DNA from: Halobacillus karajensis
GTDB taxonomy: Bacteria; Bacillota; Bacilli; Bacillales; Halobacillaceae
Direction: 5' to 3'
Length of the DNA stretch: 64,000 nucleotides
Assembly (NCBI RefSeq): GCF_900108515.1
Contig: NZ_FNWW01000001.1
Coordinates: 186,001-250,000, forward strand
In this document: positions 26,507 to 41,604 of the stretch, piece after piece
Position numbering within the stretch: the stretch's first letter is position 1
How the letters are laid out: each line of letters begins with the position of its first letter
Made by a program: the position numbers and the translations under genes
The notes under the pieces: model-generated
Told to the model about the DNA's origin: nothing
Database searches by the model: none
Seen by the model: the letters and a program-made list of their open reading frames with translations, nothing else

Positions 26507-26545
26507 ATAAGCCGGACCCTCTTTTTTAAGAGGCGTCCGACTTTT
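26507..26545 (-). terminator. Terminator of tctCBA
   Basis: Minus strand AAGTCGGACGCCTCTT pairs with AAGAGGGTCCGGCTT around AAAA, followed by ATTTTGTTG. It overlaps the tctA stop codon. Confidence 0.85.
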
Positions 26546-28040
26546 CTTCCTGATCGGATTGTTTTTCCTTACGGTTCCGGATGATCGGAACAATGAATGA
26601 TAAAATGCTGACAATATAGAGTCCAATGGATACAGGATCAGAAATAAGTATCATCATATCTCCTCCTGCCGATGTTAATGACTGTCTTAGCGACTGTTCC
26701 ATCATCCCACCAAGAATGAAAGCTAAGATAAATGGTGCAGCAGGAAAGCTGAATAGCCTCATTAAGTAACCCAGAACCCCGAAAATCAGAAGTAAGTACA
26801 AATCAAACGTACTGAAACTGATTGCATAAACACCGATCAAACTGAAGATAGCCACCAGTGAAATCAGCATCGGTCGTGCGATTTTTAAAATTTTTGCTAT
26901 ATAAGGGATTAAAGGCAAGTTTAAAACCAACAAGAAAATGTTCCCGATGTACATACTTGCTATAATGCCCCAGAATACTTCAGGACGATCTGCCATAAGA
27001 AGCGGCCCAGGCTGGATACCTAAAACAAGAAAAGCACCCAGCATGACAGCTGTTGTTCCTGAACCTGGTATACCAAGACTCAGCAATGGTACGAAGGCTC
27101 CGCTTGTAGCAGCATTATTGGCTGTTTCTGGAGCGGACAATCCTTTGACAGACCCTTTGCCAAATTCTTTAGGATTTTTAGAGATTTTCTTTTCGGTTAT
27201 ATAGCCAATGAAGGATGCAATTGTCGCACCGGCACCTGGCAAGACACCAAGAATAAAACCAAGGAAAGACTGCCTTCCCATTGGACCTCGCATTTCTTTG
27301 AAATCTTTTTTGCTAAGTTTGAGACTGCCGATATCCCCTTGGTTTTGCAAAGAAGTATCTTTTCTCTTAATAACAAGAAAACAGATTTCGGCAAGTGCAA
27401 AGAGGCCGAGTGCAATGACGAGAAAGTCGATTCCTTCAAGCAGGTTCGGATTCCCAAATGTAAACCGGGTCGTTCCAGTCTGTCCATCAATTCCAATGGT
27501 TGCTACCATGAATCCGAGCGTTGCTGTAATAAGTGCTTTAATTGTCGAGCCATCAGACAAGCTCGCAATAGCGGTCAATCCTAAGAACATTAATGCGAAA
27601 TATTGCGGCGGTCCAAAAGAAACAGCGACTGCCGATAATGCCGGTGCGAAAAGCATTAAAAGGACCACCGAAACCGTTCCCCCTACGAAGGAGGATATTG
27701 CAGCGATGGCCAGCGCTTTTCCTGCTTCCCCCCGTTGGGCCATCGGATAGCCATCAAATGATGTCGCTACCGTCCCGGAAATCCCCGGGGCATTTAGTAA
27801 AATCGATGACGTAGAACCTCCAAAAACAGCTCCGTAGTAGACTCCTGCCATCATCACTAACGCGGTTGATGGATCCATTCCATACGTAATCGGAATCATG
27901 ATCGCAATTGCACTGATAGGCCCGAGTCCCGGCATCATTCCGATTAGCGTACCGGCCACGACTCCGATTAAAACGAATAAGATTCCCTGCCAGCTGAAAG
28001 CAACCTGGATTCCCTGCATTAAACCTTCCATAGCACCCAT
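26526..28040 (-). CDS. tctA: Tripartite tricarboxylate transporter, large permease TctA
   Basis: 504 aa with about twelve membrane segments. Duplicated TctA signatures are GTLIGMMPGLGPISAIAIMI near residue 30 and GFILGVLPGAGATIASFIGY near 260, with PGISGTVATSFDGYPMAQRGEAG between. It is the channel of a secondary binding-protein-dependent carboxylate importer. GGGAGGTGAG precedes the ATG. It follows tctB by 16 bases and ends the operon. Substrate is likely a di- or tricarboxylate such as citrate, judged from the adjacent CitA/CitB-type regulators. Confidence 0.95.
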   Translation of the reverse strand: MGAMEGLMQGIQVAFSWQGILFVLIGVVAGTLIGMMPGLGPISAIAIMIPITYGMDPSTALVMMAGVYYGAVFGGSTSSILLNAPGISGTVATSFDGYPMAQRGEAGKALAIAAISSFVGGTVSVVLLMLFAPALSAVAVSFGPPQYFALMFLGLTAIASLSDGSTIKALITATLGFMVATIGIDGQTGTTRFTFGNPNLLEGIDFLVIALGLFALAEICFLVIKRKDTSLQNQGDIGSLKLSKKDFKEMRGPMGRQSFLGFILGVLPGAGATIASFIGYITEKKISKNPKEFGKGSVKGLSAPETANNAATSGAFVPLLSLGIPGSGTTAVMLGAFLVLGIQPGPLLMADRPEVFWGIIASMYIGNIFLLVLNLPLIPYIAKILKIARPMLISLVAIFSLIGVYAISFSTFDLYLLLIFGVLGYLMRLFSFPAAPFILAFILGGMMEQSLRQSLTSAGGDMMILISDPVSIGLYIVSILSFIVPIIRNRKEKQSDQEEKSDAS

Positions 28041-28056
28041 AATGACTCACCTCCCT

Positions 28057-28512
28057 TTAAAATGGTAGTAATCCTTGCGGTAAACGGATTTGTAATAAGT
28101 AGTTGAATGATAGGTACATAATCAATGGAAAAAGAATGGCAACGAGAAGAGTTGTTTTAAGCTTGCGGTATCCTAAGAACCAGGAACACGCAAAGATAAA
28201 TAAACTTGAGCTCAACACGAAACCAATGATTTCCAATAGGAAAATATAAAGGAAAATCATCCCGCCAACGGCTAGCAAGACAAAGATCTCCTTCTTTGGG
28301 ACTTGCCGTTTTTCTTTCTCTTCTTCCGTCTCCGAGGATTTATCAAAAAACAAAAAGACCGCAAGAACGATTAATACATAACCTAACACCTTAGGAAGAA
28401 AGTCAGAATCCACGGGAACATAAGGGTATTCCTTTAAGTTGTAACTTAAATAAAGATAACCAGCAGACAATAAAATTAAGAAGACGCTTAACTTCTGGTT
28501 CAATGTTTTCAA
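28057..28512 (-). CDS. tctB: Tripartite tricarboxylate transporter, small permease TctB
   Basis: 151 aa with four predicted membrane segments (first: VFLILLSAGYLYLSY) and an acidic/basic loop around SSETEEEKEKRQ, as usual for TctB. No ATG fits; TTG codons at 28515 or 28512 follow GAAGGTGA and give a proper length. An upstream GTG at 28566 lies inside a hairpin and has no ribosome site. It sits between tctC and tctA. Confidence 0.85.
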   Translation of the reverse strand: MKTLNQKLSVFLILLSAGYLYLSYNLKEYPYVPVDSDFLPKVLGYVLIVLAVFLFFDKSSETEEEKEKRQVPKKEIFVLLAVGGMIFLYIFLLEIIGFVLSSSLFIFACSWFLGYRKLKTTLLVAILFPLIMYLSFNYLLQIRLPQGLLPF

Positions 28513-28538
28513 CAAAAAATCACCTTCTATTAATAAGG

Positions 28539-28562
28539 AAAGGGCCTGTTGGCAGACCCTTT
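28539..28562 (-). terminator. Intercistronic hairpin between tctC and tctB
   Basis: AAAGGGTCTG pairs with CAGGCCCTTT (one G-T pair) around CCAA on the minus strand, without a T-run. It probably stabilises the tctC message or lowers downstream expression, giving more binding protein than permease. Confidence 0.55.
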
Positions 28563-28570
28563 TCACTTAA

Positions 28571-29584
28571 TTATTGATTCAACCCGAGTTCTTCCATCAA
28601 GCTTCCTAGTTCTTCTCTTTGTTCATCAAGGAACTTGCTATATTCTTCACTGTCCATGTAGGACTCGTCCCATCCATAGTTATTACGGATATCAGCAAAA
28701 GCTTCAGATTCACTTACTTCTTTCAATTTTTCTTCGTAATAAGCGACTTGTCCCTCTGTCATATCTCCTGGACCAAAGAACCCTCTCCAGTTTACAAATG
28801 TTGCGTCAATTCCCTGCTCTGTTGCAGTTGGGAAATCTTCCAGTACCTCTCCTTCAAGGCGTTCTTCCGCTGTAATTCCAAGAACACGGATTTTCCCTGC
28901 TTTGACCTGTTCAACCGTTTCCGCTACACCTGTTGAGAAAACATCCGCACTTCCGTTCAGGATTTGTGTCATACCGCCACCATCTTGGGCAGAAACATAC
29001 TTAATTTTCTGGATGTCGACGCCTGCCTCCTTAGCTATTTTGACAAATTGCATATGGTCCATCGACCCAGGGGAAGACGTTCCGACAACCGTCACGCTGG
29101 ATGGGTCCTCTTTCATGTCTTCAAACAGCTCGTTCAAATTCTCCCATTTCGCGTCATCTGCTACGGCAAACGCTGCATAATCTGCAATCATGTTGGCAAG
29201 AGGTGTAAAATCATCATGAGACAAATCAGACTGACCGTTCAATGGAACGAAAATCAATGGAGGTGAAGATACAAAGATGTTGTGAGGATCATTTGTGCTG
29301 TTTATGTAAGACCAGCCGACGGCTCCCCCGCCACCTTCTTTATTCACAACCCCAACATTCTGTTCTGTGATACCTTCTTCTTCAAGCACTTTACCGACAG
29401 AGCGTGCTGTCGTATCCCAGCCACCGCCAGCACCTGCAGGAGCGACAATTTCAATATTTTGATCCGGTGTCCATTCACCGTCGCCCCCCTCTCCACTGTC
29501 TCCACTTGTTTCCGAAGAGTCACCGCCACAAGCAGCTAAAATTAAAACAAAAAATAAACTACCAAACATCAATAAACGCTTCAT
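28571..29584 (-). CDS. tctC: Tripartite tricarboxylate transporter substrate-binding lipoprotein TctC
   Basis: 337 aa. A lipoprotein signal (VLILAACGG, cysteine near residue 19) and a Gly/Ser/Asp-rich linker precede a Bug/TctC-type binding domain with IEIVAPAGAGGGWDTTAR, VVNKEGGGGAVGW and VVGTSSPGSMDHM. The start at 29584 has GAGGGG 9 bases upstream. A cre box at 29651-29665 indicates catabolite repression, and the two-component system encoded just upstream likely activates it. Confidence 0.95.
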   Translation of the reverse strand: MKRLLMFGSLFFVLILAACGGDSSETSGDSGEGGDGEWTPDQNIEIVAPAGAGGGWDTTARSVGKVLEEEGITEQNVGVVNKEGGGGAVGWSYINSTNDPHNIFVSSPPLIFVPLNGQSDLSHDDFTPLANMIADYAAFAVADDAKWENLNELFEDMKEDPSSVTVVGTSSPGSMDHMQFVKIAKEAGVDIQKIKYVSAQDGGGMTQILNGSADVFSTGVAETVEQVKAGKIRVLGITAEERLEGEVLEDFPTATEQGIDATFVNWRGFFGPGDMTEGQVAYYEEKLKEVSESEAFADIRNNYGWDESYMDSEEYSKFLDEQREELGSLMEELGLNQ

Positions 29585-29650
29585 ATAATAAATCCCCTCT
29601 CTCTTCAACTAATTGTTGTTATTGGATAGTTTATAAGATAAACAAACCTT

Positions 29651-29665
29651 TGTAACCGTTTTCAA
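29651..29665 (-). promoter_or_regulatory. cre box (CcpA) before tctC
   Basis: The minus strand reads TTGAAAACGGTTACA, matching all fixed positions of WTGNAANCGNWNNCW. It lies about 70 bases upstream of the tctC start in the only sizeable gap of the region. Confidence 0.7.
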
Positions 29666-29741
29666 AATATTCTGTATTAAATACATAAAAACAATTAACC
29701 AAATAAAATTCACAGCCAATCTCGCATTTCTATGTCATGTT

Positions 29742-29795
29742 ATATGGGAAAATATGTATGACCAGGTACACCAAAATCTGTCATACCTAGTACAG
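29742..29795 (-). repeat. Dispersed intergenic repeat, copy 4 (inverted)
   Basis: Read on the minus strand it gives GACAGATTTTGGTGTACCTG followed by GTCATACATATTTTCCCATA. This parallels the copy at 11538-11580 over some 35 bases. It lies between the response-regulator terminator and the tctC promoter. Confidence 0.6.
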
Positions 29796-29841
29796 AGGAA
29801 TTTCGATAATTCCCAAGAAAGGAACAACTCCCCCTTTAACC

Positions 29842-29871
29842 AAAAAAACTCGTCCGCACGACGAGTTTTCT
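29842..29871 (-). terminator. Terminator of the two-component system genes
   Basis: AAAACTCGTC pairs with GACGAGTTTT around a five-base loop; the minus-strand product ends in TTTTTTGG. It lies just past the response-regulator stop. Confidence 0.88.
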
Positions 29872-29881
29872 CCTTGCTCTT

Positions 29882-30559
29882 CTATGATTTTTTGTAGTAT
29901 TTCCGCTGTGGACGGCCGACTTTTCCGTAGTTCATTTCTGCCTTACCTTTTTGAATACTGATCAAATATTCCAAATAGCGGCGGGCGGTTGTTTTCGATG
30001 CCCCCATCTGTGTACTCGCTTGGTCGGCAGTCAATCCATCATCTTTGGCTTCATCCAACATCGCTTCGACCTTTTCAAGTGTGAGCGGATCAATCCCTTT
30101 TGGAACAGCCACCGGAGTCGATCCAGATTTTACCGACGGTTTGATCAATTGATCAATAGCCGCTTGGTCAAAGGTCTCGATGTTGGCCATCTTCTCTTTT
30201 CTCTCCATATACCTTTGGATCGTCTCCTGAAATCGATCCAACGTAATTGGCTTAATAATATAGTCAAGGACCCCATATTTCATTGCCTTTTCGACGACTT
30301 CTTTTTCTTTGGCTGCCGTAATCATAATGACGTCCACATGGGGAACTTTTTCACGAACTTGATGGAGAAGATTGACACCTAGCTGATCTGGCATATACAC
30401 ATCCAGAAGGAGCAGGTCGGGCTGCGTTTCTTCCAGAAGCCTCATTGTCTCTTCTGCATTTAATGCTTTTCCGACCATGTCCACACCTTCCATCATTCGC
30501 AAAAACTGTGCGTGCAGCTCGGCTACTCTGAAATCATCCTCGCTGATCATCACCTTCAT
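29882..30559 (-). CDS. CitB/DcuR-family response regulator
   Basis: 225 aa. The receiver domain spans residues 1-120 with the acidic pair E7-D8-D9, the phosphoacceptor in LLLLDVYMPD and the conserved lysine in YIIKPI. A C-terminal winged helix of the CitT/DcuR/MalR type follows (LTADQASTQMGASKTTARRYLEYL). Its ATG overlaps the kinase stop by four bases. Family members control citrate, malate and fumarate uptake, matching the TctCBA genes directly downstream. Confidence 0.93.
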   Translation of the reverse strand: MKVMISEDDFRVAELHAQFLRMMEGVDMVGKALNAEETMRLLEETQPDLLLLDVYMPDQLGVNLLHQVREKVPHVDVIMITAAKEKEVVEKAMKYGVLDYIIKPITLDRFQETIQRYMERKEKMANIETFDQAAIDQLIKPSVKSGSTPVAVPKGIDPLTLEKVEAMLDEAKDDGLTADQASTQMGASKTTARRYLEYLISIQKGKAEMNYGKVGRPQRKYYKKS

Positions 30560-32151
30560 CGGCTTCCCCCCCTTGTGTTTTTTGGTAAAAAGATAGAGAA
30601 GACGGCACCGCCTTTCTCTCCATTGGTCACTTCCATCATACCGGATCGACGTTCAATAACTTCTCTAACGTTTGCTAACCCGTAGCCCCTCAACTCACCC
30701 TTTTTCGTTGAGAAGCCTCTCATAAACAGCCTTTGGTAAACATCATCCGGGATTCCAGGGCCATTATCTGTCACTTCAAAAACGATATCCTCTCCCATAT
30801 CTGTAACAAAGAAATCAACCTTTTTCACATTCTGCTGAGAAACAGCTTCAAAAGCATTGTCTATGATATTTCCTAACATCGTCACAATGTCAGCACGGTT
30901 GATGTGATCCGGCATACGCTCCAATTCGGATTCTTCATGTATCGAAAAGTTAATTTTCTTTTCCGAAGCCCGGCTCATTTTTCCAGTAAGGATAGCCTGG
31001 ACAGTTTCATCCTGGATTTGATCAAAAATGACCGTCTGATATTTCTGTGACATATGATATTCTTCCTCAATCATCGCCACTGCTTCCTCTTGCTTTCCCA
31101 GCTGGAGGAGTCCGAGCAGGACGTACATTTTATTTGCATGTTCATGCGTCTGGGAGCGCAGTCCTTCCGAGTGTCGTTTCACTTCAGACAAGGCCTGGAC
31201 CATATCCCTTACTTCCGTCTTATCACGGAAACTGGATACAACCCCAGCTACCTTCCCGTCATGGGTGATAGGCGTACGATTAACAATGACCACTTTATCG
31301 CGTAAGATCATCTCATCATCTCTTGTCGGCACACCTGTCTTCAGCACCTTCAACATTTCCGTATTCGGAAACACCTCTGTAATAAGACGCCCGACAGCTC
31401 CACCCGATAAATTCAGAAGGTCTATCGCCGACTGATTGATCATCGTCACCTTCCCCTGTGCATCTATGGAGATGATCCCTTCCTTAATGGAAGAAAGAAT
31501 CGCCTCTCGTGTCTGATAAAAAGATGTGATTTCGTGTGGCTCAAGACCAAGCGTATCTTTACGAATACTTCGGGCCAATAAAAGGCTTCCGATTGCGCCT
31601 ACGACTAACACGAGGACAGCCACACCAAAAACATTCTCAAGCTTATTCCATACGATCGTTCGGACATCCTCCAAAAGGAATCCGACGGAAACGATACCAA
31701 TTATTTCTCCATCCTCACCGATGATCGGGGCTTTTCCTCTTAACGAAGGACCAAGAGTTCCTTCGGCTTTTGATATGTAATATTCCCCATTATTCAAGGC
31801 ACGCTCATTATCTCCCCCGACCATTCGCCTGCCTATTTTCCACTCATCAGGGTGGGCATAACGAATACTATGTTTATTCCCGACCACAATGAACTCCGCC
31901 CCTGATTCCCGTTGTACACTTAATGCAATCGGTTGAATGATTTCAGAGGGATTCTCTCTGTCAAAAGCTTCTTTTATTGTCGGCATAAAAGAGACCGTAC
32001 TCGCGACCTGGAGCGCCAGCTGCCCTACCTGGTCTTCTACATCCCTTTTCTCCATATAGGCAAAAACCCCGGCCAACAGCCCGATGACTATGATTAATAA
32101 AGAAAGAATCAGTCCCATGATTTTCGTGCGCAGCGAAACCTTCACTTTCAT
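30556..32151 (-). CDS. CitA/DcuS-family sensor histidine kinase
   Basis: 531 aa membrane kinase. Two membrane helices (about residues 10-30 and 175-195) bracket an extracytoplasmic PAS-like sensor domain that binds carboxylates in CitA and DcuS. A cytoplasmic PAS domain (about 215-315), the phosphoacceptor region SQTHEHANKMYVLLGLLQLG and an ATPase domain with NIIDNAFEA and GPGIPDDVY follow. GGTGG lies almost against the ATG at 32151; a GTG two codons later has better spacing. Together with the regulator it probably senses external citrate or a similar acid for tctCBA. Confidence 0.93.
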   Translation of the reverse strand: MKVKVSLRTKIMGLILSLLIIVIGLLAGVFAYMEKRDVEDQVGQLALQVASTVSFMPTIKEAFDRENPSEIIQPIALSVQRESGAEFIVVGNKHSIRYAHPDEWKIGRRMVGGDNERALNNGEYYISKAEGTLGPSLRGKAPIIGEDGEIIGIVSVGFLLEDVRTIVWNKLENVFGVAVLVLVVGAIGSLLLARSIRKDTLGLEPHEITSFYQTREAILSSIKEGIISIDAQGKVTMINQSAIDLLNLSGGAVGRLITEVFPNTEMLKVLKTGVPTRDDEMILRDKVVIVNRTPITHDGKVAGVVSSFRDKTEVRDMVQALSEVKRHSEGLRSQTHEHANKMYVLLGLLQLGKQEEAVAMIEEEYHMSQKYQTVIFDQIQDETVQAILTGKMSRASEKKINFSIHEESELERMPDHINRADIVTMLGNIIDNAFEAVSQQNVKKVDFFVTDMGEDIVFEVTDNGPGIPDDVYQRLFMRGFSTKKGELRGYGLANVREVIERRSGMMEVTNGEKGGAVFSIFLPKNTRGGSR

Positions 32152-32434
32152 CTCCACCTATGAAAACGTTATCTTCCTCTATCGTAACACATGACTTAAT
32201 TTGATAGATATCTATAGTCAGAATTTTGTCTCATTTTATCATTTTATAGAATTTTAAGCTATGTGAACAGAAATAAAGAAAATTCTTTAATATTCATTCA
32301 AAAAAACCCTAACATCAGTGAAAATAAACACTAAAAACGAACAATAACACAAAAAATAAGATAAATGTTCGAAAAAAAGGTTGTCATTGTCCACTATCCT
32401 CTGCTATAGTAATCATGTCATCCAATTACATCCT

Positions 32435-32616: not shown

Positions 32617-32673
32617 ATTTCTGAATGATGAGAAGGGATGCGATGGCCAAACAAACACGAAGGAGAGTCACGC

Positions 32674-33564
32674 ATGAAAGACATCTTTACAGCACGCACC
32701 CTTACACTTGCACTTGCACTCTTATCTATTCTTTTCTTGTTCCTGCTTGCCGGGTGTCAAACCTCTACGAAAAGTGGGGCCCTCACTGCAGACGAAAAGG
32801 ATGCACAACCCATCCTCGTTCAAGGACCCATGCCAATTGAAGCTCAAAACTTTGCAGAAAAACTAGAGAATGTGGAAGAAGAGAAATCCGGGAATTTCGT
32901 CTTTTATAAAGGAACGGTGAACGATTATCCGGTCATCGTAATGAAAACAGGCAAAGGTATGGAAAACACAGCAGCGGCAACAGCCCTTGCCATTGAAAAA
33001 TTCGATCCTCTTGCTATTATTAATCAAGGAACCTCTGGTGGGCACGACCCTGATTTACATGTTTTTGATATCGTTCTTGGAAAAAGAACCGTCAACATCG
33101 GATCACTGAAAACAGGGAGCCTAGAAGATGGCGAAGGGATCGCTCCAAAAGAATGGATTCCGATGGACTTGATGGCATCCGAAGGAAGTGCTGGCGAGGA
33201 CCTGGACGCTGAGAATATCCGTTATTTTGAAGGGGATAAAGAGTTGCTGGCTGCAGCGAAGTCCGTTAAGAATACCCATGAGAAAGGAAAAGTTGTGGAA
33301 GGTACGATTGGTTCCGCCGATGTATGGAATAACGAAGTTGACCGCATCCAATGGTTCCATGAGAACTTCGGAACATCTGTGGAAGAGATGGAAGGAGCTG
33401 CGGGGGCACAAATCGCGAAAGCCTATGAGGTTCCTTATCTAGGGATCCGCATTTTATCTAACAACAAAACGAATGATGGAGAATATAACCCTGATACGGC
33501 TGAGACAAATCAGGAATATGTTTATGAAGTCGTGAAAAAATATATCGCTTCGAAAGCGAAGTAA
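32674..33564 (+). CDS. Purine-riboswitch-controlled nucleoside phosphorylase/nucleosidase-family lipoprotein
   Basis: 296 aa. A signal peptide with lipobox LLAGC (residues about 1-27) precedes a PNP_UDP_1/MTA-SAH nucleosidase-type fold: VIVMKTGKGMENTAAATALAI, IINQGTSGG and the purine-site motif VEEMEGAAGAQIA. The mature protein should sit on the outer face of the membrane. AAGGAG supports the ATG at 32674; an upstream ATG at 32638 lacks a site. Control by a guanine riboswitch suggests a role in salvaging external purine nucleosides, releasing base for uptake. Exported members of this family are uncommon; whether it is a hydrolase or phosphorylase is not decided by sequence. Confidence 0.88.
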   Translation: MKDIFTARTLTLALALLSILFLFLLAGCQTSTKSGALTADEKDAQPILVQGPMPIEAQNFAEKLENVEEEKSGNFVFYKGTVNDYPVIVMKTGKGMENTAAATALAIEKFDPLAIINQGTSGGHDPDLHVFDIVLGKRTVNIGSLKTGSLEDGEGIAPKEWIPMDLMASEGSAGEDLDAENIRYFEGDKELLAAAKSVKNTHEKGKVVEGTIGSADVWNNEVDRIQWFHENFGTSVEEMEGAAGAQIAKAYEVPYLGIRILSNNKTNDGEYNPDTAETNQEYVYEVVKKYIASKAK

Positions 33565-33711: not shown

Positions 33712-34923
33712 TTAATTTAAGAAGTTCAAAGCTGCCTGTCTATAAATCTCCGTTGTTTCTGCTAGTTCCTCTATATCCACATACTCATCAATCTGGTGAG
33801 GAACTTCTCGGTCTCCCGCACCAATGGTTACGATCGGCACACCGGCTACATGAAGAAAAGTTCCATCCGTAGCCCCTGGCACGCCGTTGTATATCGGATC
33901 TTTAACTAAAACACTTTGAACCGCTTCTGCCACAGCTTCCACAACGGGTTCCTCTTTATCCGTTGATGTCCATGGGCGATCTTCGATTACATCAAAGTCA
34001 GCCTTAAATTCCGGATCATCTTGGGCAAGTCGGGCAAAAATATGATGGATCTCTTCTTGTAATCTATCATGATCCTGACCTGGAACTGTACGAATATCAA
34101 GTGTTGTCATACATTGCTCAGGAATCACATTGATTTGTGCATCCCCTTTCGCAGGTGCCTGTAATATAGTAGGAGTGATGCTCGGCCAACCGAGAGTCGG
34201 ATGTTTTCCTAACCGTTCTTGTTCCCGTTTCTCTAGCTTCTCCAATTCGACAATAACTTTAGCCATCCTGAGATTCGGGTTGATTCCACTCCATGAAATA
34301 GCCCCGTGAGCCATCTTCCCGTAAGTCTTCAAAACGAGACGCATGGCTCCGCGTTGGGCTATACATACCTGGTTTTCTTCGGGTTCGCAGATGATGGCTC
34401 CATCGGCTTGATCCGCCCACCCTTGTTTAATAAAATGTTTGATACCGATCATCATGCCTTCTTCATCACATGGAATGCAGAGGATAATTTTCCCACTCCA
34501 TTCTTCTTTATCCTCTAAAAGAGATTGGACCGCCGTAATCATACAGGCTAAATTGCCTTTGGTATCATTGGTTCCCCGGCCATACATCAGCCCATCAACG
34601 ATTTCTGCCCCAAAAGGGTCATACTTCCACGAATGAGAATCTCCTTCTGTCACTACATCCGTATGACCTTCAAATATAAGGGTCTTCCCTGGTTTTCCAG
34701 AATCAATAACTCCAATGACATTAGGGCGGCCAGCTTCCACCTCTTCAATATGGACCTCAATACCAAGCTTACTTAAATGTTCAGCCACAAAGGCTGCACA
34801 TTTTTTTTCATTCCCGCCTTCTTCACCTGGACGGTAAACACTTGGGATGCGTACTAACGATTGAGTCAGTGCTATAACTCTTTCTCGATCTCGGGTAGAC
34901 CTTGTTTCTATTCTTGTGTGCAT
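33712..34923 (-). CDS. M20-family amidohydrolase (pantothenase candidate)
   Basis: 403 aa zinc-dependent ArgE/DapE/ACY1-like enzyme. Metal-site motifs are IFEGHTDVV, GRGTNDTKGNLACMI, the catalytic glutamates in PCDEEGMM, and CEPEENQV; a dimerisation domain with KMAHGAISWSGINPNL lies in the middle. It has no signal peptide, so it acts in the cytoplasm. It starts 4 bases after the PanF-like symporter and is last in the six-gene operon. Family members cleave N-acyl amino acids; pantothenate is N-pantoyl-beta-alanine, so it is the natural candidate to release beta-alanine and pantoate. The family is sure, the substrate inferred. Confidence 0.85.
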   Translation of the reverse strand: MHTRIETRSTRDRERVIALTQSLVRIPSVYRPGEEGGNEKKCAAFVAEHLSKLGIEVHIEEVEAGRPNVIGVIDSGKPGKTLIFEGHTDVVTEGDSHSWKYDPFGAEIVDGLMYGRGTNDTKGNLACMITAVQSLLEDKEEWSGKIILCIPCDEEGMMIGIKHFIKQGWADQADGAIICEPEENQVCIAQRGAMRLVLKTYGKMAHGAISWSGINPNLRMAKVIVELEKLEKREQERLGKHPTLGWPSITPTILQAPAKGDAQINVIPEQCMTTLDIRTVPGQDHDRLQEEIHHIFARLAQDDPEFKADFDVIEDRPWTSTDKEEPVVEAVAEAVQSVLVKDPIYNGVPGATDGTFLHVAGVPIVTIGAGDREVPHQIDEYVDIEELAETTEIYRQAALNFLN

Positions 34924-34927
34924 TTGG

Positions 34928-36400
34928 TTAAACGCTCCTTTCTATTTTCTCTTGGTTCATAGAACTTTGAATGACGAAAGATTTCGTTAAGAGACTTACG
35001 ATTACAAAAGCGATAAGCGATAGAAGGATAGGAAGAACAACGTTATGCAGGCCGAATAAGTTGGGGAAAAATTGATCCACAATGATGTAAGAAGCAATCC
35101 CTACGACCATTGAGGATAACGCTCCATATTTGTTACCTGCCTCCCAATACAATCCAAGAACGACGGGCCATATAAATGTCGCTTCAAGCCCTCCAAATGC
35201 AAACAAGTTGAGCCAGATCAATAAATCAGGGGGACTCAACGCCATTAAGAAAACAAGAATTCCCAGAATCGCGGTTACACCGAAGCTCATCTGCTTCACC
35301 CTGGTATTGGATGCATCCGGTTTGATATAATTTAAATAGACATCTTTAACGACAGCGGAACTTACAATCAAAAGCAAGGAGTCAACCGTGGACATAATCG
35401 CAGCCATCGGGGCAGCCAGTACAATCCCTGCCAGCCATGGAGGCAGTACTTCTTGAGCAATTAGCGGCATAACTTTATCTCCGACCTCAATTCCTGGAAG
35501 AATCGGCCGTGCGAATACACCAATCAAGTGCATATTCAACATAATAAATCCGACAACAACCGTCCCGATAATGAGAGCCCTGTGCATAGAACGTGAGCTT
35601 TTATAGGACATAGCCCGGACAGTTACTTGAGGCAGACCAACGACGGCCACACCGACTAGAATCCAGAATGAAGATACATAAGTAGGGCTCAAACTTCCTT
35701 CCGCACCATATGGAGTGACTAAATTAGGGTTCTCGGCTGTTAGATCCGCCATGATGTTTCCGATTCCCCCACCGGCAGCAATCGTAGCAATTAACAAAAT
35801 AAGCGTCCCGCCAAACATAACCACACCTTGTACCGTATCGGTCAGCGCAACAGCTCTGAATCCACCAATAATGACATAGACGAGGACAGACACAGCAAAG
35901 ATAAATAGGGCAGTCGTATAATTAAGTCCTGTCAGTGATTCGATCAATCTTGCTCCGCCCACCCATTGAGCTGCCATCGCAGCAAAAAGGAAAATAATAA
36001 TGCTGAAAGCAGCAGTCAGCACTACCCATTTGCTTTGGTAACGACCTTTCAAATAATCAATAAGTGTAACAGCCTTATATCTTCGTGCCATTATCGCAAA
36101 CTTCTTACCAAGAATCATCAGTACAAAATATCCCGTGGCCACTTGGGACATCGAAAGAAGCACCCAACCGAATCCTTCTGTATAAGCCACTCCTGGTCCA
36201 CCGATAAAACTACTTGCACTTCCATAAGTAGCAATCATCGTCATCGCGAGAATAAATCCCCCCAGCTGACGCCCTCCAAGGAAATATTCTTGGAGAAAGG
36301 ACTCTTCTGCTGTATTTTTCAATGATCGGCTCGACCAAAAGCCAATGACGAAGATGATGACAAGGAAAATGAGTAAGGATATAACAACAGCGGTATTCAT
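34928..36400 (-). CDS. panF: Sodium:solute symporter, PanF-like (Na+/pantothenate)
   Basis: 490 aa with about thirteen membrane helices. The region EYFLGGRQLGGFILAMTMIA and the following SSFIGGPG-AYTEGFGWVL, KKFAIMARRYKAVTL, QWVGGARL, LAAPMAAIMST and IIWLNLFAFGGLEA-type motifs follow E. coli PanF closely from end to end as I remember it, more than other SSS members such as PutP. Its ATG overlaps the YhdT-like stop by four bases, and yhdT-panF adjacency is also seen in E. coli. It should import pantothenate or a close analogue using the sodium gradient. Confidence 0.87.
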   Translation of the reverse strand: MNTAVVISLLIFLVIIFVIGFWSSRSLKNTAEESFLQEYFLGGRQLGGFILAMTMIATYGSASSFIGGPGVAYTEGFGWVLLSMSQVATGYFVLMILGKKFAIMARRYKAVTLIDYLKGRYQSKWVVLTAAFSIIIFLFAAMAAQWVGGARLIESLTGLNYTTALFIFAVSVLVYVIIGGFRAVALTDTVQGVVMFGGTLILLIATIAAGGGIGNIMADLTAENPNLVTPYGAEGSLSPTYVSSFWILVGVAVVGLPQVTVRAMSYKSSRSMHRALIIGTVVVGFIMLNMHLIGVFARPILPGIEVGDKVMPLIAQEVLPPWLAGIVLAAPMAAIMSTVDSLLLIVSSAVVKDVYLNYIKPDASNTRVKQMSFGVTAILGILVFLMALSPPDLLIWLNLFAFGGLEATFIWPVVLGLYWEAGNKYGALSSMVVGIASYIIVDQFFPNLFGLHNVVLPILLSLIAFVIVSLLTKSFVIQSSMNQEKIERSV

Positions 36401-36684
36401 GACTTCTCTCCCTCCTCATCATCAAGCGGAACTTCCACAAACCATACTTTCACCACAATGATGACAAGTAAAGCCATCACGATAAATCCTATGACACTGC
36501 TGTAAAAGAACCATGCTGGCAAACCAAAGACATACGTATAAGTTTCAGGGGATTGACCACCAAGTCCGTAAGCGAAAGCAAACCACCAAACAAAGTTAAA
36601 AATAGCGAGAGCTAGGCCTATTAATGCTTCCCGGTTGGCAATTTTAAACCGATCATCCTGTTTACTCTTTTGTTCTTTTTTCAA
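36397..36684 (-). CDS. yhdT: YhdT-family small membrane protein (DUF997)
   Basis: 95 aa with two membrane helices (about 22-45 and 56-80) and charged ends. The tryptophan-rich FNFVWWFAFAYGLGG and LPAWFFYSSVIGFI stretches are typical of YhdT. Translation starts at TTG 36684, preceded by AAGGAG; the ATG just before it runs into a stop after three codons. It overlaps the symporter gene by four bases. YhdT is thought to be an accessory subunit of PanF-like transporters, judged from its constant neighbourhood; its exact role is unknown. Confidence 0.85.
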   Translation of the reverse strand: MKKEQKSKQDDRFKIANREALIGLALAIFNFVWWFAFAYGLGGQSPETYTYVFGLPAWFFYSSVIGFIVMALLVIIVVKVWFVEVPLDDEEGEKS

Positions 36685-36781
36685 CTCCCCATCTCCTTTT
36701 TAATAAGCTCTGAGCAATTCAGAGTTTTGGACGATTTGAAATCAAGACTCTCTCATCTCTGGGTAAATGAAAAAACAGAGC

Positions 36782-38236
36782 TCACATTTTTAAGGCAACA
36801 TTCTTCAATGTGGTGTAATTTCTTAGCGCTTCAAGACCTTTTTCCCTTCCAAAACCACTTTTTTTGTAGCCGCCAAAAGGCATTTGAATGCCGCCCCCAG
36901 CTCCATAATTGTTAATAAATACTTGGCCAGACCTGATTTTTTTCGCTACACGATGAGCGCGTCCAACATTCTCTGTCCAGACTCCTGTGACTAATCCATA
37001 AGGCGTATCATTGGCTAACTTAATCGCTTCCTCTTCATTCTGGAAGGAAAATACACTAAGAACTGGTCCGAAAATTTCTTCTTGAGCTACCTGGCTGTGT
37101 GGATCAAGCTGATCAATCATCGTGGGTTGGAGGAAATAACCTGCTTCACAGCCCTCCACTAGAGCGCGTTCTCCACCCGTTAAAAAGATGGCCTGTTCTT
37201 TCCGGGCTACATTCAAAAATGTCTCAATCCTTTCAAACTGCTTACGCGATAAGACAGGTCCAAGATCTGGGTCCTCTAATCCATGACCGATCTTCAATGA
37301 AAGCATGCGACTCTTCACTTTATCTATAAATATTTCTTTTACATCCTCTTCTACAAGCAGCCTGGAACCTGCCGAACACGTTTGTCCCGCATTTTGAATC
37401 ACAGATTTAACCACCCAATCGGCAGCATGATCCAAGATGCTGTCCTTGAATACAATGTTTGGAGACTTACCCCCAAGCTCCAATGTGATGGGAATAACAT
37501 TCTTTGAAGCAGCTTCCATTACCGCCATACCAGTCTGAACGGACCCAGTGAATGTGATGTGATTCACATCTGGATGGTGAACCAACGCATCACCTGCTTC
37601 TCTTCCATAACCTGTCACAACGTTGAATACGCCTTTAGGAAGTGATGTTTCTTCCATGAGTTCAGCTAATTTCAGACCCGTTAAGGGGGTATCTTCCGCA
37701 GGTTTCACTACCACCGTATTCCCTGTCGCAATAGCCGCCGCAGTACTTCTTGAGGTAATTTGAATGGGATAATTCCATGGGATAATATGAGCGGTTACAC
37801 CTACAGGTTCTCTGACAGTATAATCCAAAATATTCGCTTGGATAGGAATCGTTTCACCCAAAATTTTGTCAGCCATTCCTGCGTAGTATTCAAAATATCT
37901 TGCTGCTGCTTCGGCATCGTTTCTTCCTTGAGAAATCGGCTTTCCTGTATCCATTGTTTCGAGTTTTGCTATTTCTTCAGCATCCCTTCTTATCTTTGAA
38001 GCCACTTCATTCAGGACCCTCCCCCTCTCATCAGGAGGGAATGCCTGCCATTCTTCTGACTCAAAGGTATCCCGTGCCATTCCAACTGCCTGTTCCACAT
38101 CTTCTTTCCTTCCACGTGGTACTTCAGCAATTACTTCTTGATTCGCAGGGTTCCTGATTGGAAGCCCCTCATTCGTTTCACTTTCTCTCCACTCGCCACC
38201 GATATACATCCGCTTCATACCTTCACCTGCTTTCAT
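36782..38236 (-). CDS. NAD(P)-dependent aldehyde dehydrogenase
   Basis: 484 aa. Signatures in order are HIIPWNYPIQI, TFTGSVQTG, the glutamate loop LELGGKSPN and the catalytic cysteine in NAGQTCSAGSR, with [11 protein letters not shown] towards the C-terminus. The ATG overlaps the stop of the preceding SDR gene (TAATG), implying coupled translation; an ATG at 38218 after AGGTGA is an alternative start. In the proposed pantothenate pathway it would oxidise 4-dehydropantoate to 3,3-dimethylmalate. Betaine-aldehyde-like enzymes look similar, so substrate rests on context. Confidence 0.88.
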   Translation of the reverse strand: MKAGEGMKRMYIGGEWRESETNEGLPIRNPANQEVIAEVPRGRKEDVEQAVGMARDTFESEEWQAFPPDERGRVLNEVASKIRRDAEEIAKLETMDTGKPISQGRNDAEAAARYFEYYAGMADKILGETIPIQANILDYTVREPVGVTAHIIPWNYPIQITSRSTAAAIATGNTVVVKPAEDTPLTGLKLAELMEETSLPKGVFNVVTGYGREAGDALVHHPDVNHITFTGSVQTGMAVMEAASKNVIPITLELGGKSPNIVFKDSILDHAADWVVKSVIQNAGQTCSAGSRLLVEEDVKEIFIDKVKSRMLSLKIGHGLEDPDLGPVLSRKQFERIETFLNVARKEQAIFLTGGERALVEGCEAGYFLQPTMIDQLDPHSQVAQEEIFGPVLSVFSFQNEEEAIKLANDTPYGLVTGVWTENVGRAHRVAKKIRSGQVFINNYGAGGGIQMPFGGYKKSGFGREKGLEALRNYTTLKNVALKM

Positions 38237-38994
38237 TAAAGTCCACGGCCTCCATCCACATTCAATACGCTTCCAGTCACCATTTTCGCTTGATCAGAAC
38301 TCAAATAAAGGACCGCTTCTGCAATATCTTCCGGCATGACCAACTGACCGAGAGGGACACTCTGCTTAAACGTTTCCTCCTTTACTTTATTGACATCTCC
38401 TCCTAGAGGACTGAATTTCCCAAGCATATTCGTATCTGAGGGCCCTGGATTAATGGCATTTACACGGATGTTGAACTCCGCTAATTCAATGGCTAATGCC
38501 TTTGTAAAAGAAATCGCACCACCTTTCGAAGTTACATAAGCATTCAGACCAGGGCGTGGGCGCTCAGCTGCAATCGAAGCGATATTTGTAATCGCACCTG
38601 ATCCTTTCGTTTTCATCACTTTCACCACTTCTTTATTAACCAGAAAAAGCGATGTCATATTGACAGCCATCAACTTGTCCCACTCATCTAAGGTAACTTC
38701 TTCAATTGGGGTAGCGGATTGAGCTATTCCCAATGTATTGACTAAAATTGAAATTCTGCCTCCTAGAAAATCGGCTGCCTGCTGTATCGCATTGGTCACT
38801 TGCTTTTCATCTGTCAAATTTGCAGGAATAGCTAACAATTGAGATAGATAGTCTTCTTTCCCCACCTCAAGTTCATCCACATGCAGATCAAGCGCCGCTA
38901 CTTTAGCTCCTTCCTTTAGGAAACGCTCCGTAATGACTTTGCCCATTCCTCCATTAGCACCCGTAACAACAACCGTTTTATTCTTAAAGTTCAT
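38236..38994 (-). CDS. Short-chain dehydrogenase/reductase (pantoate 4-dehydrogenase candidate)
   Basis: 252 aa classical SDR. The cofactor loop is VVVTGANGGMGKVI, the aspartate in ALDLHVDEL suggests NAD preference, and the catalytic motif is AYVTSKGG with an upstream serine in TNIASIA. The C-terminal NVDGGRGL is usual for the family. AGGAGG supports the ATG at 38994. It lies 10 bases after the decarboxylating dehydrogenase gene and overlaps the aldehyde dehydrogenase. An alcohol-to-aldehyde step followed by ALDH oxidation fits conversion of pantoate to 4-dehydropantoate. Confidence 0.87.
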   Translation of the reverse strand: MNFKNKTVVVTGANGGMGKVITERFLKEGAKVAALDLHVDELEVGKEDYLSQLLAIPANLTDEKQVTNAIQQAADFLGGRISILVNTLGIAQSATPIEEVTLDEWDKLMAVNMTSLFLVNKEVVKVMKTKGSGAITNIASIAAERPRPGLNAYVTSKGGAISFTKALAIELAEFNIRVNAINPGPSDTNMLGKFSPLGGDVNKVKEETFKQSVPLGQLVMPEDIAEAVLYLSSDQAKMVTGSVLNVDGGRGL

Positions 38995-39004
38995 ACATTC
39001 CCTC

Positions 39005-40072
39005 CTACGTTTGCTTATGAATGTGTTGCACGATTGCATCTCCTGTCTCAAACGTGCGAGCTGTGCCTCCTAAATCAGGGGTTAAAGCCGTCTTTTCATT
39101 CACTACATTTTCTATGGCCTTCATAACTATAGAAGCTAAATCTTCTCGACCCAAATGCTCAAGCATTAGAGCAGCAGACCATATTTGAGCGATAGGATTA
39201 GCTGTCTGCTTCCCACTAATATCAGGGGCCGACCCATGAATCGGTTCAAACATCGAAGGATAATTCCGTTCAGGATTAAGGTTAGCTGACGGTGAAAGAC
39301 CAAGCCCCCCAACTAGGGCCGCTCCAAGATCACTCAGGATATCTCCAAATAAATTGGAGGCAACAATGACATCAAACGTTTCCGGACGCTGAACCAAGTG
39401 CGCAGCAAGGGCATCAATGTAGGTATCTTCCACTTCGATTTCAGGAAAGGAAGCGGCTACACTTTTCACGGATTCATCCCACAAGTTCATTGAATGAATG
39501 ATGGCGTTGGATTTCGTCGCATTCACTACTTTTTTGACACCAGTCTTCTCTGCATATTCAAAGGCATATCTGGCCAGTCGCTCTACACCCTTTTTCGTAA
39601 TAACTGTATTCTGGATAGCTAGTTCATCAGAGGTTCCTTGATATAAACGGCCGCCACTGTTCGAATATTCTCCTTCCGCATTTTCACGATACACATAAAA
39701 ATCAATCAGCCCTTTAGCATGAATCGGACTTTTCACCCCGGGCAATTGCTTGATTGGACGTAAGTTCACATATTGATGGAAGTTCTTTCTTATCGGCATG
39801 ATCAACTCCCATATGGGAATATGTTCAGGTACACGTGGATCCCCAACGGCTCCAAAGTAAATCGCATCATAGTTCTCTAAAATAGATAAACCATTTTCCG
39901 GCATCATACGGTTATGCTTTAAGTAATACTCGGAGTTCCATTCTAAGGTTGTGCTCTCAAATTGAAAGGAAGAGTCAGCTTCTGAAAGCGCTTGTACAAC
40001 TTTCATCCCTTCGTTTACCACTTCCGGGCCGATGCCATCACCAGGCAATACGGCTAGATGATAGGTTTTCAT
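39005..40072 (-). CDS. Tartrate/D-malate-type decarboxylating dehydrogenase (dimethylmalate dehydrogenase candidate)
   Basis: 355 aa member of the isocitrate/isopropylmalate dehydrogenase family, tartrate dehydrogenase (TtuC/DmlA/YcsA) branch. Signatures are LPGDGIGPEVV at the N-terminus, DFYVYRENAEGEY in the substrate site, NLFGDILSDLGA for the metal, and FEPIHGSAPDI for NAD. AGGAGGG precedes the ATG at 40072. It is the first gene of the six-gene operon. Enzymes of this branch oxidise a 2-hydroxy acid and lose the beta-carboxyl group; (R)-3,3-dimethylmalate is such a substrate and would give 2-oxoisovalerate. D-malate or tartrate remain possible. Confidence 0.9.
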   Translation of the reverse strand: MKTYHLAVLPGDGIGPEVVNEGMKVVQALSEADSSFQFESTTLEWNSEYYLKHNRMMPENGLSILENYDAIYFGAVGDPRVPEHIPIWELIMPIRKNFHQYVNLRPIKQLPGVKSPIHAKGLIDFYVYRENAEGEYSNSGGRLYQGTSDELAIQNTVITKKGVERLARYAFEYAEKTGVKKVVNATKSNAIIHSMNLWDESVKSVAASFPEIEVEDTYIDALAAHLVQRPETFDVIVASNLFGDILSDLGAALVGGLGLSPSANLNPERNYPSMFEPIHGSAPDISGKQTANPIAQIWSAALMLEHLGREDLASIVMKAIENVVNEKTALTPDLGGTARTFETGDAIVQHIHKQT

Positions 40073-40185
40073 TGAACCCTCCTCCAAACGTTATGTAATC
40101 AGATATTCCGTAAAAAAAGAAGGAACCAAACTAGGCAGGAGTAATAAGGCTGGATCATCACAAAGTAGAAGAAAAAATCGATGCG

Positions 40186-40205
40186 TACATCATACATATG
40201 ATGTA
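40186..40205. promoter_or_regulatory. Candidate operator of the GntR/FadR regulator
   Basis: Inverted repeat TACATCAT-ACAT-ATGATGTA between the divergent operon and its regulator gene. It is the only strong palindrome in the 230-base gap, about 115 bases from either start codon. The surroundings are AT-rich as expected for back-to-back promoters. Confidence 0.6.
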
Positions 40206-40302
40206 TTATGTATAGTATATTATCTGAATTTTTCAAAAAAGTAAATATATTTTAAAGAAAATTCTGATTTATAAAATATTTATTCAGGCAAGGATGATCA
40301 CA

Positions 40303-41004
40303 TTGAATATCTCATTTAACAGAATCCACTCCAATCAAACGAAAACCATGGGGATTGTATCTATTATCAAAGATCATTTGATAGAAGGGAAATTAAAACC
40401 AGGAGATAAATTACCAACAGAAATGGAATTGATCGAGCAGCTTGGGGTAAGCCGAACCCCCGTTCGTGAGGCCATTAAAATCCTCGAATCCATTGGTGTT
40501 ATCCAAATCAAACGTGGGGAAGGAATGTTCATCACAAATCATTCATCTAAGTTAACAATGAATCCACTCATTTTCAGTTTGATTATGCACAGTCACAATG
40601 TGGAACAACTGATCGAATTCCGCCAGCACTTTGAAATGCTGCTCATGAATATGATTATTTCCAAAGAAGAAAAGAATTTAGATCCCATCGAATCTGTATA
40701 CCTCTCCCAGGTAGAACGGATGAAACCCGAACTTACTCCAGAGGAACTCGTCGACATTGATTTAGAATTCCACTATGCGATTTTGGAAGAAACCAAGAAC
40801 CCCTTTACCATCGAAATCGGGCGAACTATTTATGAATTGATTCGTCCAAAAATGGTCCATTTTAAAGACCCTGGGGCTATCAACCGAACACTTGCGACAC
40901 ACAAAGAACATCTCGACTTATTAAAAGGGGAAAAAACGTGGGACCCAACTGAAGTGGTAACGAAGATGATAAAAAATAATGAAGAAATGATTAAAGATGA
41001 ATAG
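40303..41004 (+). CDS. GntR/FadR-family transcriptional regulator
   Basis: 233 aa. The N-terminal winged helix (residues about 15-75, KLPTEMELIEQLGVSRTPVREAIKIL) is followed by an FCD helical effector domain (about 90-230), which in this subfamily binds carboxylic acids with a metal through histidines such as those in LEFHYAILEE and THKEHLDLL. A TTG at 40303 with AAGGA 8 bases upstream is favoured; an ATG at 40294 lies inside the ribosome site. It is divergent from the six-gene operon and probably represses it until a pathway acid binds. Confidence 0.9.
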   Translation: MNISFNRIHSNQTKTMGIVSIIKDHLIEGKLKPGDKLPTEMELIEQLGVSRTPVREAIKILESIGVIQIKRGEGMFITNHSSKLTMNPLIFSLIMHSHNVEQLIEFRQHFEMLLMNMIISKEEKNLDPIESVYLSQVERMKPELTPEELVDIDLEFHYAILEETKNPFTIEIGRTIYELIRPKMVHFKDPGAINRTLATHKEHLDLLKGEKTWDPTEVVTKMIKNNEEMIKDE

Positions 41005-41088
41005 CTCATATCCAATTTTCAAAACAAGAAATCGCCATCGCCATTACCAAATGATCCAATGAAAGAAACCAGTAAAGGGAAGATGGAT

Positions 41089-41604
41089 ATGAAGATCAGA
41101 GAGGAAAAGGGAACAAATGGGTGGACGCAATACACCCTTTTGGACGATAAAGAAATGTCGGTAAAAGTTTTGAATGACGGAGGAATCATCAAGGAGATTA
41201 ACGTTCCTGATAACAAAGGGAACATCGAGAATGTCGTCCTTCATTATCAGAAAGACGAGGATGACCGAACGGACATGAATTTTTTCGGTGCCCTGATCGG
41301 AAGAGTAGCTGGCCGCATTGCCTGGGTCTACCTTTGCTATCAAAAGAAAGACGTACACGCTCGATGCAAATGATGGCGAAAGTCATATTCACTGTGGTTC
41401 GAAGGAGTTTCACACACAGCTATGGGAGACAAAAACATTCCAGGAGAAAACCGACCATCTGATAAATATTTAGGCGTTTGTTTTGAAACGCAAGGATCGC
41501 CAGCCTCTCTTCATCATCAAGGGCTTCCTTCCATCACATTAGCAGCGGATACGATCTATTCACAGCAAACCGTCTTCACTTTTCAAAGTGGATCAGCTGC
41601 CTAA
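41089..41604 (+). pseudogene. galM: Aldose 1-epimerase (galM) pseudogene
   Basis: The first 80 codons (MKIREEKGTNGW to FFGALIGRVAGRIA) match the N-terminus of galactose mutarotase. The frame then shifts near 41325 and continues as STFAIKRKTYTLDANDGES and FHTQLWET, where the family has its catalytic histidine region. After about 41445 it jumps to the C-terminal part GVCFETQGSPASLHHQG-LPSI, so roughly half of the gene is missing. AGGGAAG precedes the ATG at 41089. It stands beside xylAB, where mutarotases are common. It is non-functional as it stands. Confidence 0.85.

Follow-up and report, generated by a model that had tools for sequence, protein, structure and literature searches.

What would a bacterium gain from keeping the genes for a pantothenate symporter, a metallohydrolase and three oxidoreductases side by side? 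The question is raised by positions 33,712 to 41,004 of a 64,000-nucleotide stretch of Halobacillus karajensis DNA (the window), where six minus-strand genes form a putative operon opposite a gene for a GntR/FCD-type regulator. Judging from the predicted proteins and from related loci in other genomes, we consider it highly probable that this operon encodes a catabolic route for vitamin B5 (pantothenate).

Pantothenate degradation in Pseudomonas fluorescens comprises the activities EC 3.5.1.22, 1.1.1.106, 1.2.1.33 and 1.1.1.84, and the enzymology of pantothenate breakdown has been known since the 1960s. A 2023 article (PMC10393543), whose references include Nurmikko 1966 and Airas 1979, states in one passage that the protein identity of pantothenase is unknown, and Table 5 of a 2007 survey (PMC1940265) lists EC 1.1.1.84 and 1.2.1.33 as validated orphans. 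Genes assigned to the degradation route were absent from the literature matches listed, in a search whose coverage leaves out most subscription journals and bioRxiv preprints; nor was anything relevant to the literature name PanX found among the matches. The P. fluorescens route is known from enzymology. For each of its steps the window operon has one gene whose chemistry would fit, together with a pantothenate symporter.

Six genes and the route they would encode

From its 5' end, the operon consists of genes for a candidate dimethylmalate dehydrogenase (DMDH), a short-chain dehydrogenase/reductase (SDR), an aldehyde dehydrogenase (ALDH), YhdT, PanF and an M20 metallohydrolase, and the largest intergenic gap within it is at most 97 nt. 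The original prediction of six minus-strand genes facing a GntR/FCD regulator was borne out, as all seven open reading frames (ORFs) lie where it had placed them and their families were confirmed by Pfam and NCBIfam. DMDH (39005..40087; candidate EC 1.1.1.84) is a TtuC/DmlA-type beta-decarboxylating dehydrogenase with a PF00180 match of 315 bits, the Tyr, Lys and Asp motifs of the family and a score above the TIGR02089 (TTC/tartrate dehydrogenase) threshold (496 vs 470 bits). SDR (38236..39051; PF13561, 189 bits) contains TGxxxGxG and YxxxK, exceeds one broad NCBIfam subfamily model (232 vs 215 bits) and is a candidate pantoate 4-dehydrogenase (EC 1.1.1.106), while ALDH (36782..38236; PF00171, 570 bits), with its Glu and Cys motifs, is a candidate 4-dehydropantoate dehydrogenase (EC 1.2.1.33). 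No equivalog cut-off was reached by ALDH or SDR among the NCBIfam matches listed (best 25 each). The likelier start codons of DMDH and SDR are at 40072 and 38994, instead of the ORF ends at 40087 and 39051.

The remaining three genes encode YhdT/DUF997 (36397..36684; PF06196, 99 bits), a small membrane partner of PanF; a PanF-type Na+/pantothenate symporter of the SSS family (34928..36400); and an M20 metallohydrolase of the ArgE/DapE subfamily (33712..34923), which is a candidate pantothenase (EC 3.5.1.22). Motifs that we take to be catalytic are present in M20, SDR, ALDH and DMDH.

For the scheme that follows, we infer the substrates, the catalytic assignments, the direction of flux and catabolic role in vivo, the DNA-binding protein and the inducer. 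PanF, with YhdT, would import pantothenate with Na+, and M20 would hydrolyze it to beta-alanine and (R)-pantoate. SDR would then oxidize the 4-hydroxyl of pantoate to the aldehyde, giving 4-dehydropantoate, which ALDH would convert into (R)-3,3-dimethylmalate. Oxidation at C2 by DMDH, with loss of the C4 carboxyl as CO2, would yield 2-oxoisovalerate for the branched-chain pool, and beta-alanine would be converted into malonate semialdehyde by an aminotransferase coded elsewhere in the genome. One gene of fitting chemistry per step had been claimed originally, and the predicted families agree with this: an importer, a hydrolase, two oxidizing enzymes and an oxidatively decarboxylating one are encoded together in the window and at 28 of the 81 loci described below.

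A conserved dehydrogenase core and its own DMDH clade

Homologues of DMDH were present in 58 of 150 related genomes searched at E ≤ 1e-60. Twenty regions were taken around high-ranking matches, and in 17 of them DMDH, SDR and ALDH occurred together (the trio), the exceptions (L056-L058) holding DMDH homologues of 53-54%. The YhdT-PanF-M20 genes were downstream of the trio in L039-L044, as in the window, and upstream of it in L048, L049 and L052-L055. M20 without PanF was seen in L046 and L051, and neither in L045, L047 and L050, which instead contained genes for a tripartite ATP-independent periplasmic (TRAP) transporter and a GlcD-like oxidase.

A larger set of 81 loci was made up of the window and the best 80 of 140 confirmed relatives (175 stretches, from a profile search with alignment A1). 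ORF clustering found DMDH, SDR and ALDH at every one of them, adjacent and co-directional in this order at 80, the order in L122 being DMDH-ALDH-SDR. The search for the same gene set in other genomes, which the original prediction had called for, thus recovered the trio at 81 of 81 loci and the trio with YhdT-PanF-M20 at 28. Among named species, Geobacillus thermodenitrificans (L061) and Bacillus methanolicus (L062) have the trio together with PanF and M20, and Lysinibacillus sphaericus 2362 (L088) has it with M20 and Opp genes. The Bacillus-type trio locus L074 stands in a record titled Pseudomonas sp. ISL-84, whose title or contig is probably wrong.

As a control, the surroundings of other TtuC-type genes were searched by tblastn with four SDRs and four ALDHs from trio loci, since ORF translations misread frames in G+C-rich loci. 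At no control locus (27 distinct; 28 in all, L190 and L174 being the same gene) did the TtuC-type gene have both an SDR and an ALDH beside it. The 27 were 15 loci with 1.5-kb flanks (8 from Bacillota and 7 from the class of a Marinobacter metagenome-assembled genome (MAG)) and 12 larger regions from distant Bacillota, of which L181 alone had an SDR (37%), on the opposite strand. The recurrence of DMDH-SDR-ALDH is far beyond chance. The 81 loci come from related genomes, and Fisher values calculated from them overstate independence.

Passing the TIGR02089 cut-off is also what an ordinary D-malate or tartrate dehydrogenase would do. Such an enzyme could be fed by SDR and ALDH from a C4 hydroxy acid, threonate or erythronate for instance, with PanF and M20 as incidental neighbors, and it would suit the 24 loci with TRAP and the 14 with a GlcD-like oxidase, both of which are often seen at hydroxy-acid loci. 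We regard this explanation as very improbable, as the DMDHs of the trio form a clade apart from DmlA and TtuC. The branch has a support of 100/99 (27 vs 17 rows), and of 100/100 in a second tree (17 vs 30 rows); the nearest named DMDHs to that of the window in the first tree are from Halobacillus and Thalassobacillus. Absence of SDR and ALDH from the control loci speaks against it as well, as does the recurrence beside DMDH of PanF/YhdT/M20, of a PanT-like importer and of aminotransferase and semialdehyde dehydrogenase genes, and so does a distant homologue beside PanB and a PanE-like gene (see below).

The DMDH of the window neither groups with characterized DmlA nor shares its specificity loop. 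All 81 trio rows have I and M at residues 96 and 97 (window numbering), with the proviso that one of the two patterns that retrieved the 80 loci contains DMDH loop residues; alignment A1, whose 12 trio rows came from a whole-protein search and were selected for having the trio, shows the same I and M. In non-trio rows, these positions are L and I/L/V (17 distinct rows; 20 rows with three repeat copies). The trio loop is mostly W[ED][LF]IMPIRK instead of the LWG type. Going by the structure of LeuB and by alignment with it, this loop presumably contacts whatever group the substrate bears at C3, the position that distinguishes 3,3-dimethylmalate from malate. A DMDH homologue sharing the LIMPIR loop, with no SDR or ALDH beside it, is found at L180:7168-8277 (G626:C93).

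The best solved match of DMDH is DmlA/TtuC (PDB 3FLK; 7e-110), with which it shares family and catalytic motifs, but window-type DMDHs differ in their clade, their loop and their SDR and ALDH neighbors. E. coli DmlA is annotated as a D-malate/3-isopropylmalate dehydrogenase, an activity that by analogy would be a fitting starting chemistry for DMDH. A plasmid search with DMDH returned 489 records, all below 60% identity, and many of the best 60 are annotated as tartrate dehydrogenase.

Importers, the M20 hydrolase and the proposed fate of beta-alanine

PanF scores far above the equivalog cut-off of TIGR02119 (731 vs 328 bits) and is nearer by identity to E. coli PanF (50% over 469 aa) than to the PutP of its own genome (30%). 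The symporter had originally been described as very close to PanF, with clustering away from PanF as a refutation; judged by the TIGR02119 model and the identity to E. coli PanF, it stays with PanF. E. coli has the same yhdT-panF pairing (b3257 and b3258), but there the pair lies between accBC and prmA, outside any catabolic operon. PanF is split over two overlapping ORFs at L041:5394-6864 and in L073 (Halobacillus dabanensis), which reflects a broken gene or a sequencing error.

Four transporter types accompany the trio over the 81 loci, namely YhdT-PanF (28), TRAP (24), an oligopeptide ABC transporter (OppA, 22) and an energy-coupling factor (ECF) transporter with its S-component EcfS (5). 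M20 occurs at 52 loci and an S58 peptidase at 28; rarer companions are PucR (19), GlcD (14), an aminotransferase (9), methylmalonate-semialdehyde dehydrogenase (MMSDH, 7) and an amidase-signature enzyme (5). PanF is always found with M20 and YhdT (28 of 28). Three of the TRAP loci also have PanF and M20, and none of the other 21 has M20. M20 is present at 21 of the 22 OppA loci, and the ECF loci have M20 in one case and the amidase-signature enzyme in four. At 14 trio loci a GlcD-like FAD oxidase is encoded, 13 of them with TRAP (for example L064, L070, L096, L118 and L119), and this oxidase perhaps acts on the other enantiomer of pantoate. Amidohydro_3-like genes lie near 8 of the 81.

The ECF S-component of L046 has the PDB chain 4RFS_S as its best match (1.4e-7), and a profile of six ECF S-components matched 4RFS at 1.7e-12 and 6ZG3 at 7e-4, followed by RibU at 0.6 and 1.2. 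Passages of PMC7755397 describe 4RFS as the published structure of Lactobacillus brevis PanT and 6ZG3 as ECF-PanT. So distant a match is no proof of the ligand, but a putative PanT-like ECF importer, unrelated to PanF and standing beside the same trio, would be the strongest context argument for pantothenate.

M20 has the Peptidase_M20 and dimerization domains, and its HxD, D, EE, E and H motifs are those that we take to be metal ligands. It is a member of the ArgE/DapE subfamily according to TIGR01910 (275 vs 218 bits), a broad model whose cut-off is the only one it passes among the best 25 of 56 NCBIfam matches, and its best solved match is 7UOI (1.7e-41). It resembles the ArgE/DapE deacylases in domains and motifs and differs from them in passing only this broad cut-off among the matches listed and in its link to importers, as PanF, Opp or ECF genes accompany it at 50 of 52 loci. 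Known members of the ArgE/DapE group act on N-acyl amino acids. The pantothenase of Pseudomonas differs from an M20 metalloenzyme in that its reaction proceeds by way of an acyl-enzyme. A plasmid search with M20 gave 17 records, all below 60% identity.

The subfamily of M20 and the 21 loci that combine an Opp-type ABC transporter with M20 and the trio, most of them with an S58 peptidase, are in keeping with another substrate, such as pantetheine, a peptide-like conjugate or some other beta-alanyl or pantothenoyl amide, of which PanF-type import would be a special case. At Lysinibacillus-type loci, including L088, L097 and L098, M20 and the trio are accompanied by the Opp-type transporter and an S58 (DmpA-like) peptidase, and the Opp/S58 loci suggest a wider substrate range. 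As the main substrate of the system we find such an amide unlikely, since PanF at 28 loci and the PanT-like ECF at five indicate free pantothenate, and neither Opp nor S58 is among the ORFs adjoining the window operon.

Whole-genome searches were made for the 29 genomes with an M20-less trio locus. M20 was found elsewhere (at least 69% identity) in 9 and had no match at E ≤ 1e-60 in 20, and all five positive-control genomes, with M20 at the trio locus, were matched. Of the nine separate M20 loci, seven read YhdT-PanF-M20 (five with an adjoining aminotransferase) and two have Opp genes, so M20 tracks a pantothenate- or peptide-type importer even apart from the trio. An amidase-signature enzyme is encoded at the M20-less trio loci L068 (PF01425), L069, L071, L076 and L085, and in three of the four genomes with ECF and this enzyme a search at E ≤ 1e-60 finds no M20. 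The amidase-signature enzyme is possibly a second type of pantothenase.

Candidate genes for the disposal of beta-alanine were found as well. Aminotransferase and/or MMSDH genes are linked to 9 of 81 trio loci, all nine among the 52 with M20 and none among the 29 without it (Fisher 0.014, relatedness ignored). The aminotransferase of L060 belongs to PRK07678 (764 bits), and the MMSDH of L046 exceeds the TIGR01722 cut-off (637 vs 448 bits). That the pair disposes of beta-alanine is our assumption, on which the NCBIfam names are silent, and 3N5M, the nearest solved structure to the aminotransferase, carries a different title. In the window genome, the aminotransferase lies away from M20; a homologue of 59% is found on another contig (G000:C7), beside a PucR-type gene (34%) and an ORF that by eye resembles alanine dehydrogenase.

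Could the operon serve salvage of beta-alanine or pantothenate for coenzyme A, and not degradation for carbon or nitrogen? Passages of PMC10393543 describe how E. coli and other isolates draw beta-alanine from external pantothenate, which is cleaved to pantoate and beta-alanine before re-use. We find salvage extremely improbable here, as a pantoate-oxidizing trio would be needless for it and aminotransferase and/or MMSDH genes lie near nine of the trio loci. The host genome also encodes panB, as identified by model, with panC and panD ORFs recognized by eye beside it, so that the cell can probably make its own pantothenate. A trio working in the biosynthetic direction was considered and dropped, given these host genes and front ends that are importers.

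Taken together, the comparative data agree with the original reading of a pantothenate-to-2-oxoisovalerate route wherever they bear on it, through PanF, the apparent PanT-like ECF stand-in, the linkage of M20 with the aminotransferase, the lack of M20 at TRAP loci that have no PanF, and a distant DMDH homologue beside PanB, a PanE-like gene and other alcohol and aldehyde oxidoreductases.

Proposed regulation, distant counterparts and meaning

The GntR/FCD-type regulator gene (40294..41004, plus strand; PF00392 and PF07729) diverges from the operon, and an 18-bp palindrome, ACATCATACATATGATGT, lies between them at 40187-40204 as a proposed GntR operator. The palindrome is one central pair off perfect symmetry. 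It is the sole match in the window at up to three mismatches (shuffle mean 0.09), and over the whole 4.07-Mb genome no second site has two mismatches or fewer. GntR homologues of 68-86% occur in 9 of the 20 regions first taken. Ten loci, the window among them, have a window-type GntR, and in seven of these the motif is found in the stretch from GntR to the gene that follows. A 16-bp core of the palindrome is found in 17 of 177 loci (about ten distinct places), ahead of DMDH, GlcD or YhdT, which suggests that the TRAP/GlcD, trio and PanF/M20 modules are under one regulator. The protein binding the palindrome would be the GntR/FCD regulator, presumably released from it by a pathway intermediate.

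Other genes flank the operon. Beyond it on the same strand (26526-32157) lie genes for a TctA/TctB-like/TctC tripartite tricarboxylate transporter, a sensor kinase and a response regulator (TctB, kinase and regulator by eye); they were considered as part of the system and rejected, a relative of the sensor kinase (83-84%) being near the operon in 2 of 20 regions. Just past the 3' end of the operon, a PNP_UDP_1 nucleosidase-like gene (32638-33564, plus strand) has an apparent lipoprotein signal by eye, and between GntR and xylose-type genes a short ORF (41059-41373, plus strand) looks by eye like the prematurely ended start of a galactose mutarotase.

Matches to DMDH at E ≤ 1e-100 were found in 40 of 398 genomes sampled from the phylum of the window, with at least 60% identity in the window's genome alone. 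Twelve of the other 39 were opened as distant Bacillota regions (L178-L189). One of them (L178:4669-13680, G662:C39) encodes on a single strand PanB, a PanE-like protein, TRAP P/Q/M, a DMDH homologue, an iron alcohol dehydrogenase and a protein resembling aldehyde ferredoxin oxidoreductase (AOR). PanB matches TIGR00222 with 357 bits (equivalog cut-off 208). The PanE-like protein matches TIGR00745, the ApbA/PanE subfamily, with 292 bits (cut-off 141) and passes no equivalog among the matches listed. The iron alcohol dehydrogenase passes no cut-off, and the AOR-like protein, at 100 bits, is under its cut-off of 868. These alcohol and aldehyde oxidoreductases are not homologous to the SDR and ALDH of the trio. 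That enzymes of other families but similar chemistry stand next to PanB and a PanE-like gene speaks for pantoate, and PanB and the PanE-like protein may also serve biosynthesis there. L185 has a zinc alcohol dehydrogenase gene and an AOR-like gene ahead of its DMDH homologue; no comparable set was visible in the other ten regions, where ORF calls are poor if G+C-rich.

In the class of the Marinobacter MAG, 8 of 369 genomes matched DMDH (E ≤ 1e-120), one being the query's own and the others at 53-56%. A DmlA/TtuC-like gene follows directly after panC (304 bits) at L174/L190:7617-9550 (G478:C4), with a PanB-like stretch before panC by eye.

Several observations weigh against a dedicated pantothenate route. 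By family models alone, DMDH would be labeled a tartrate dehydrogenase (the NCBIfam name) and M20 would pass for a generic deacylase. I96 and M97 are not exclusive to the trio, as L180 has both and L178 has I96, each outside the trio clade. In 14 trio genomes that encode TRAP, M20 was not matched at E ≤ 1e-60, and the trio would therefore also serve another entry compound. At five of the 81 loci none of the four transporter types is present, and the frequency of the oligopeptide-type ABC transporter (22 of 81 loci, 21 with M20) and of the S58 peptidase (28 of 81) means that the Opp/S58 loci may in fact handle a conjugate of pantothenate or another beta-alanyl amide. The exact palindrome is missing from three of the ten GntR loci (L090, L092 and L121). 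The host genome has a second YhdT-PanF pair (L146:3339-9893, G000:C7), and the classical Pseudomonas genes were not found among the 369 genomes of the Marinobacter MAG's class. Around the second YhdT-PanF pair are genes for another SSS transporter, an Amidohydro_3-like protein and an M20 carbamoylase-like protein.

With moderate confidence, we propose a broader reading, in which bacterial catabolism of vitamin B5 would gain its first gene set from these loci. A constant DMDH-SDR-ALDH core, leading from pantoate to 2-oxoisovalerate, would be combined with interchangeable front ends, PanF or PanT-like ECF with an M20 or amidase-signature pantothenase taking in pantothenate, Opp with S58 taking in pantothenate conjugates, and TRAP with or without the GlcD-like oxidase taking in pantoate. 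In the distant Bacillota counterpart, the iron alcohol dehydrogenase and the AOR-like enzyme would carry out the two oxidations beside PanB and the PanE-like protein.

If true, this would supply genes for four enzyme activities, among them the two orphans of the 2007 table and a pantothenase whose protein the 2023 passage leaves open. All four steps are testable through the trio loci in G. thermodenitrificans, B. methanolicus and L. sphaericus 2362. The finding would bear on how "tartrate dehydrogenase" and ArgE/DapE-like genes are named, on enzymes cleaving amides of the pantothenate type, and on the removal of free vitamin B5 from environments.

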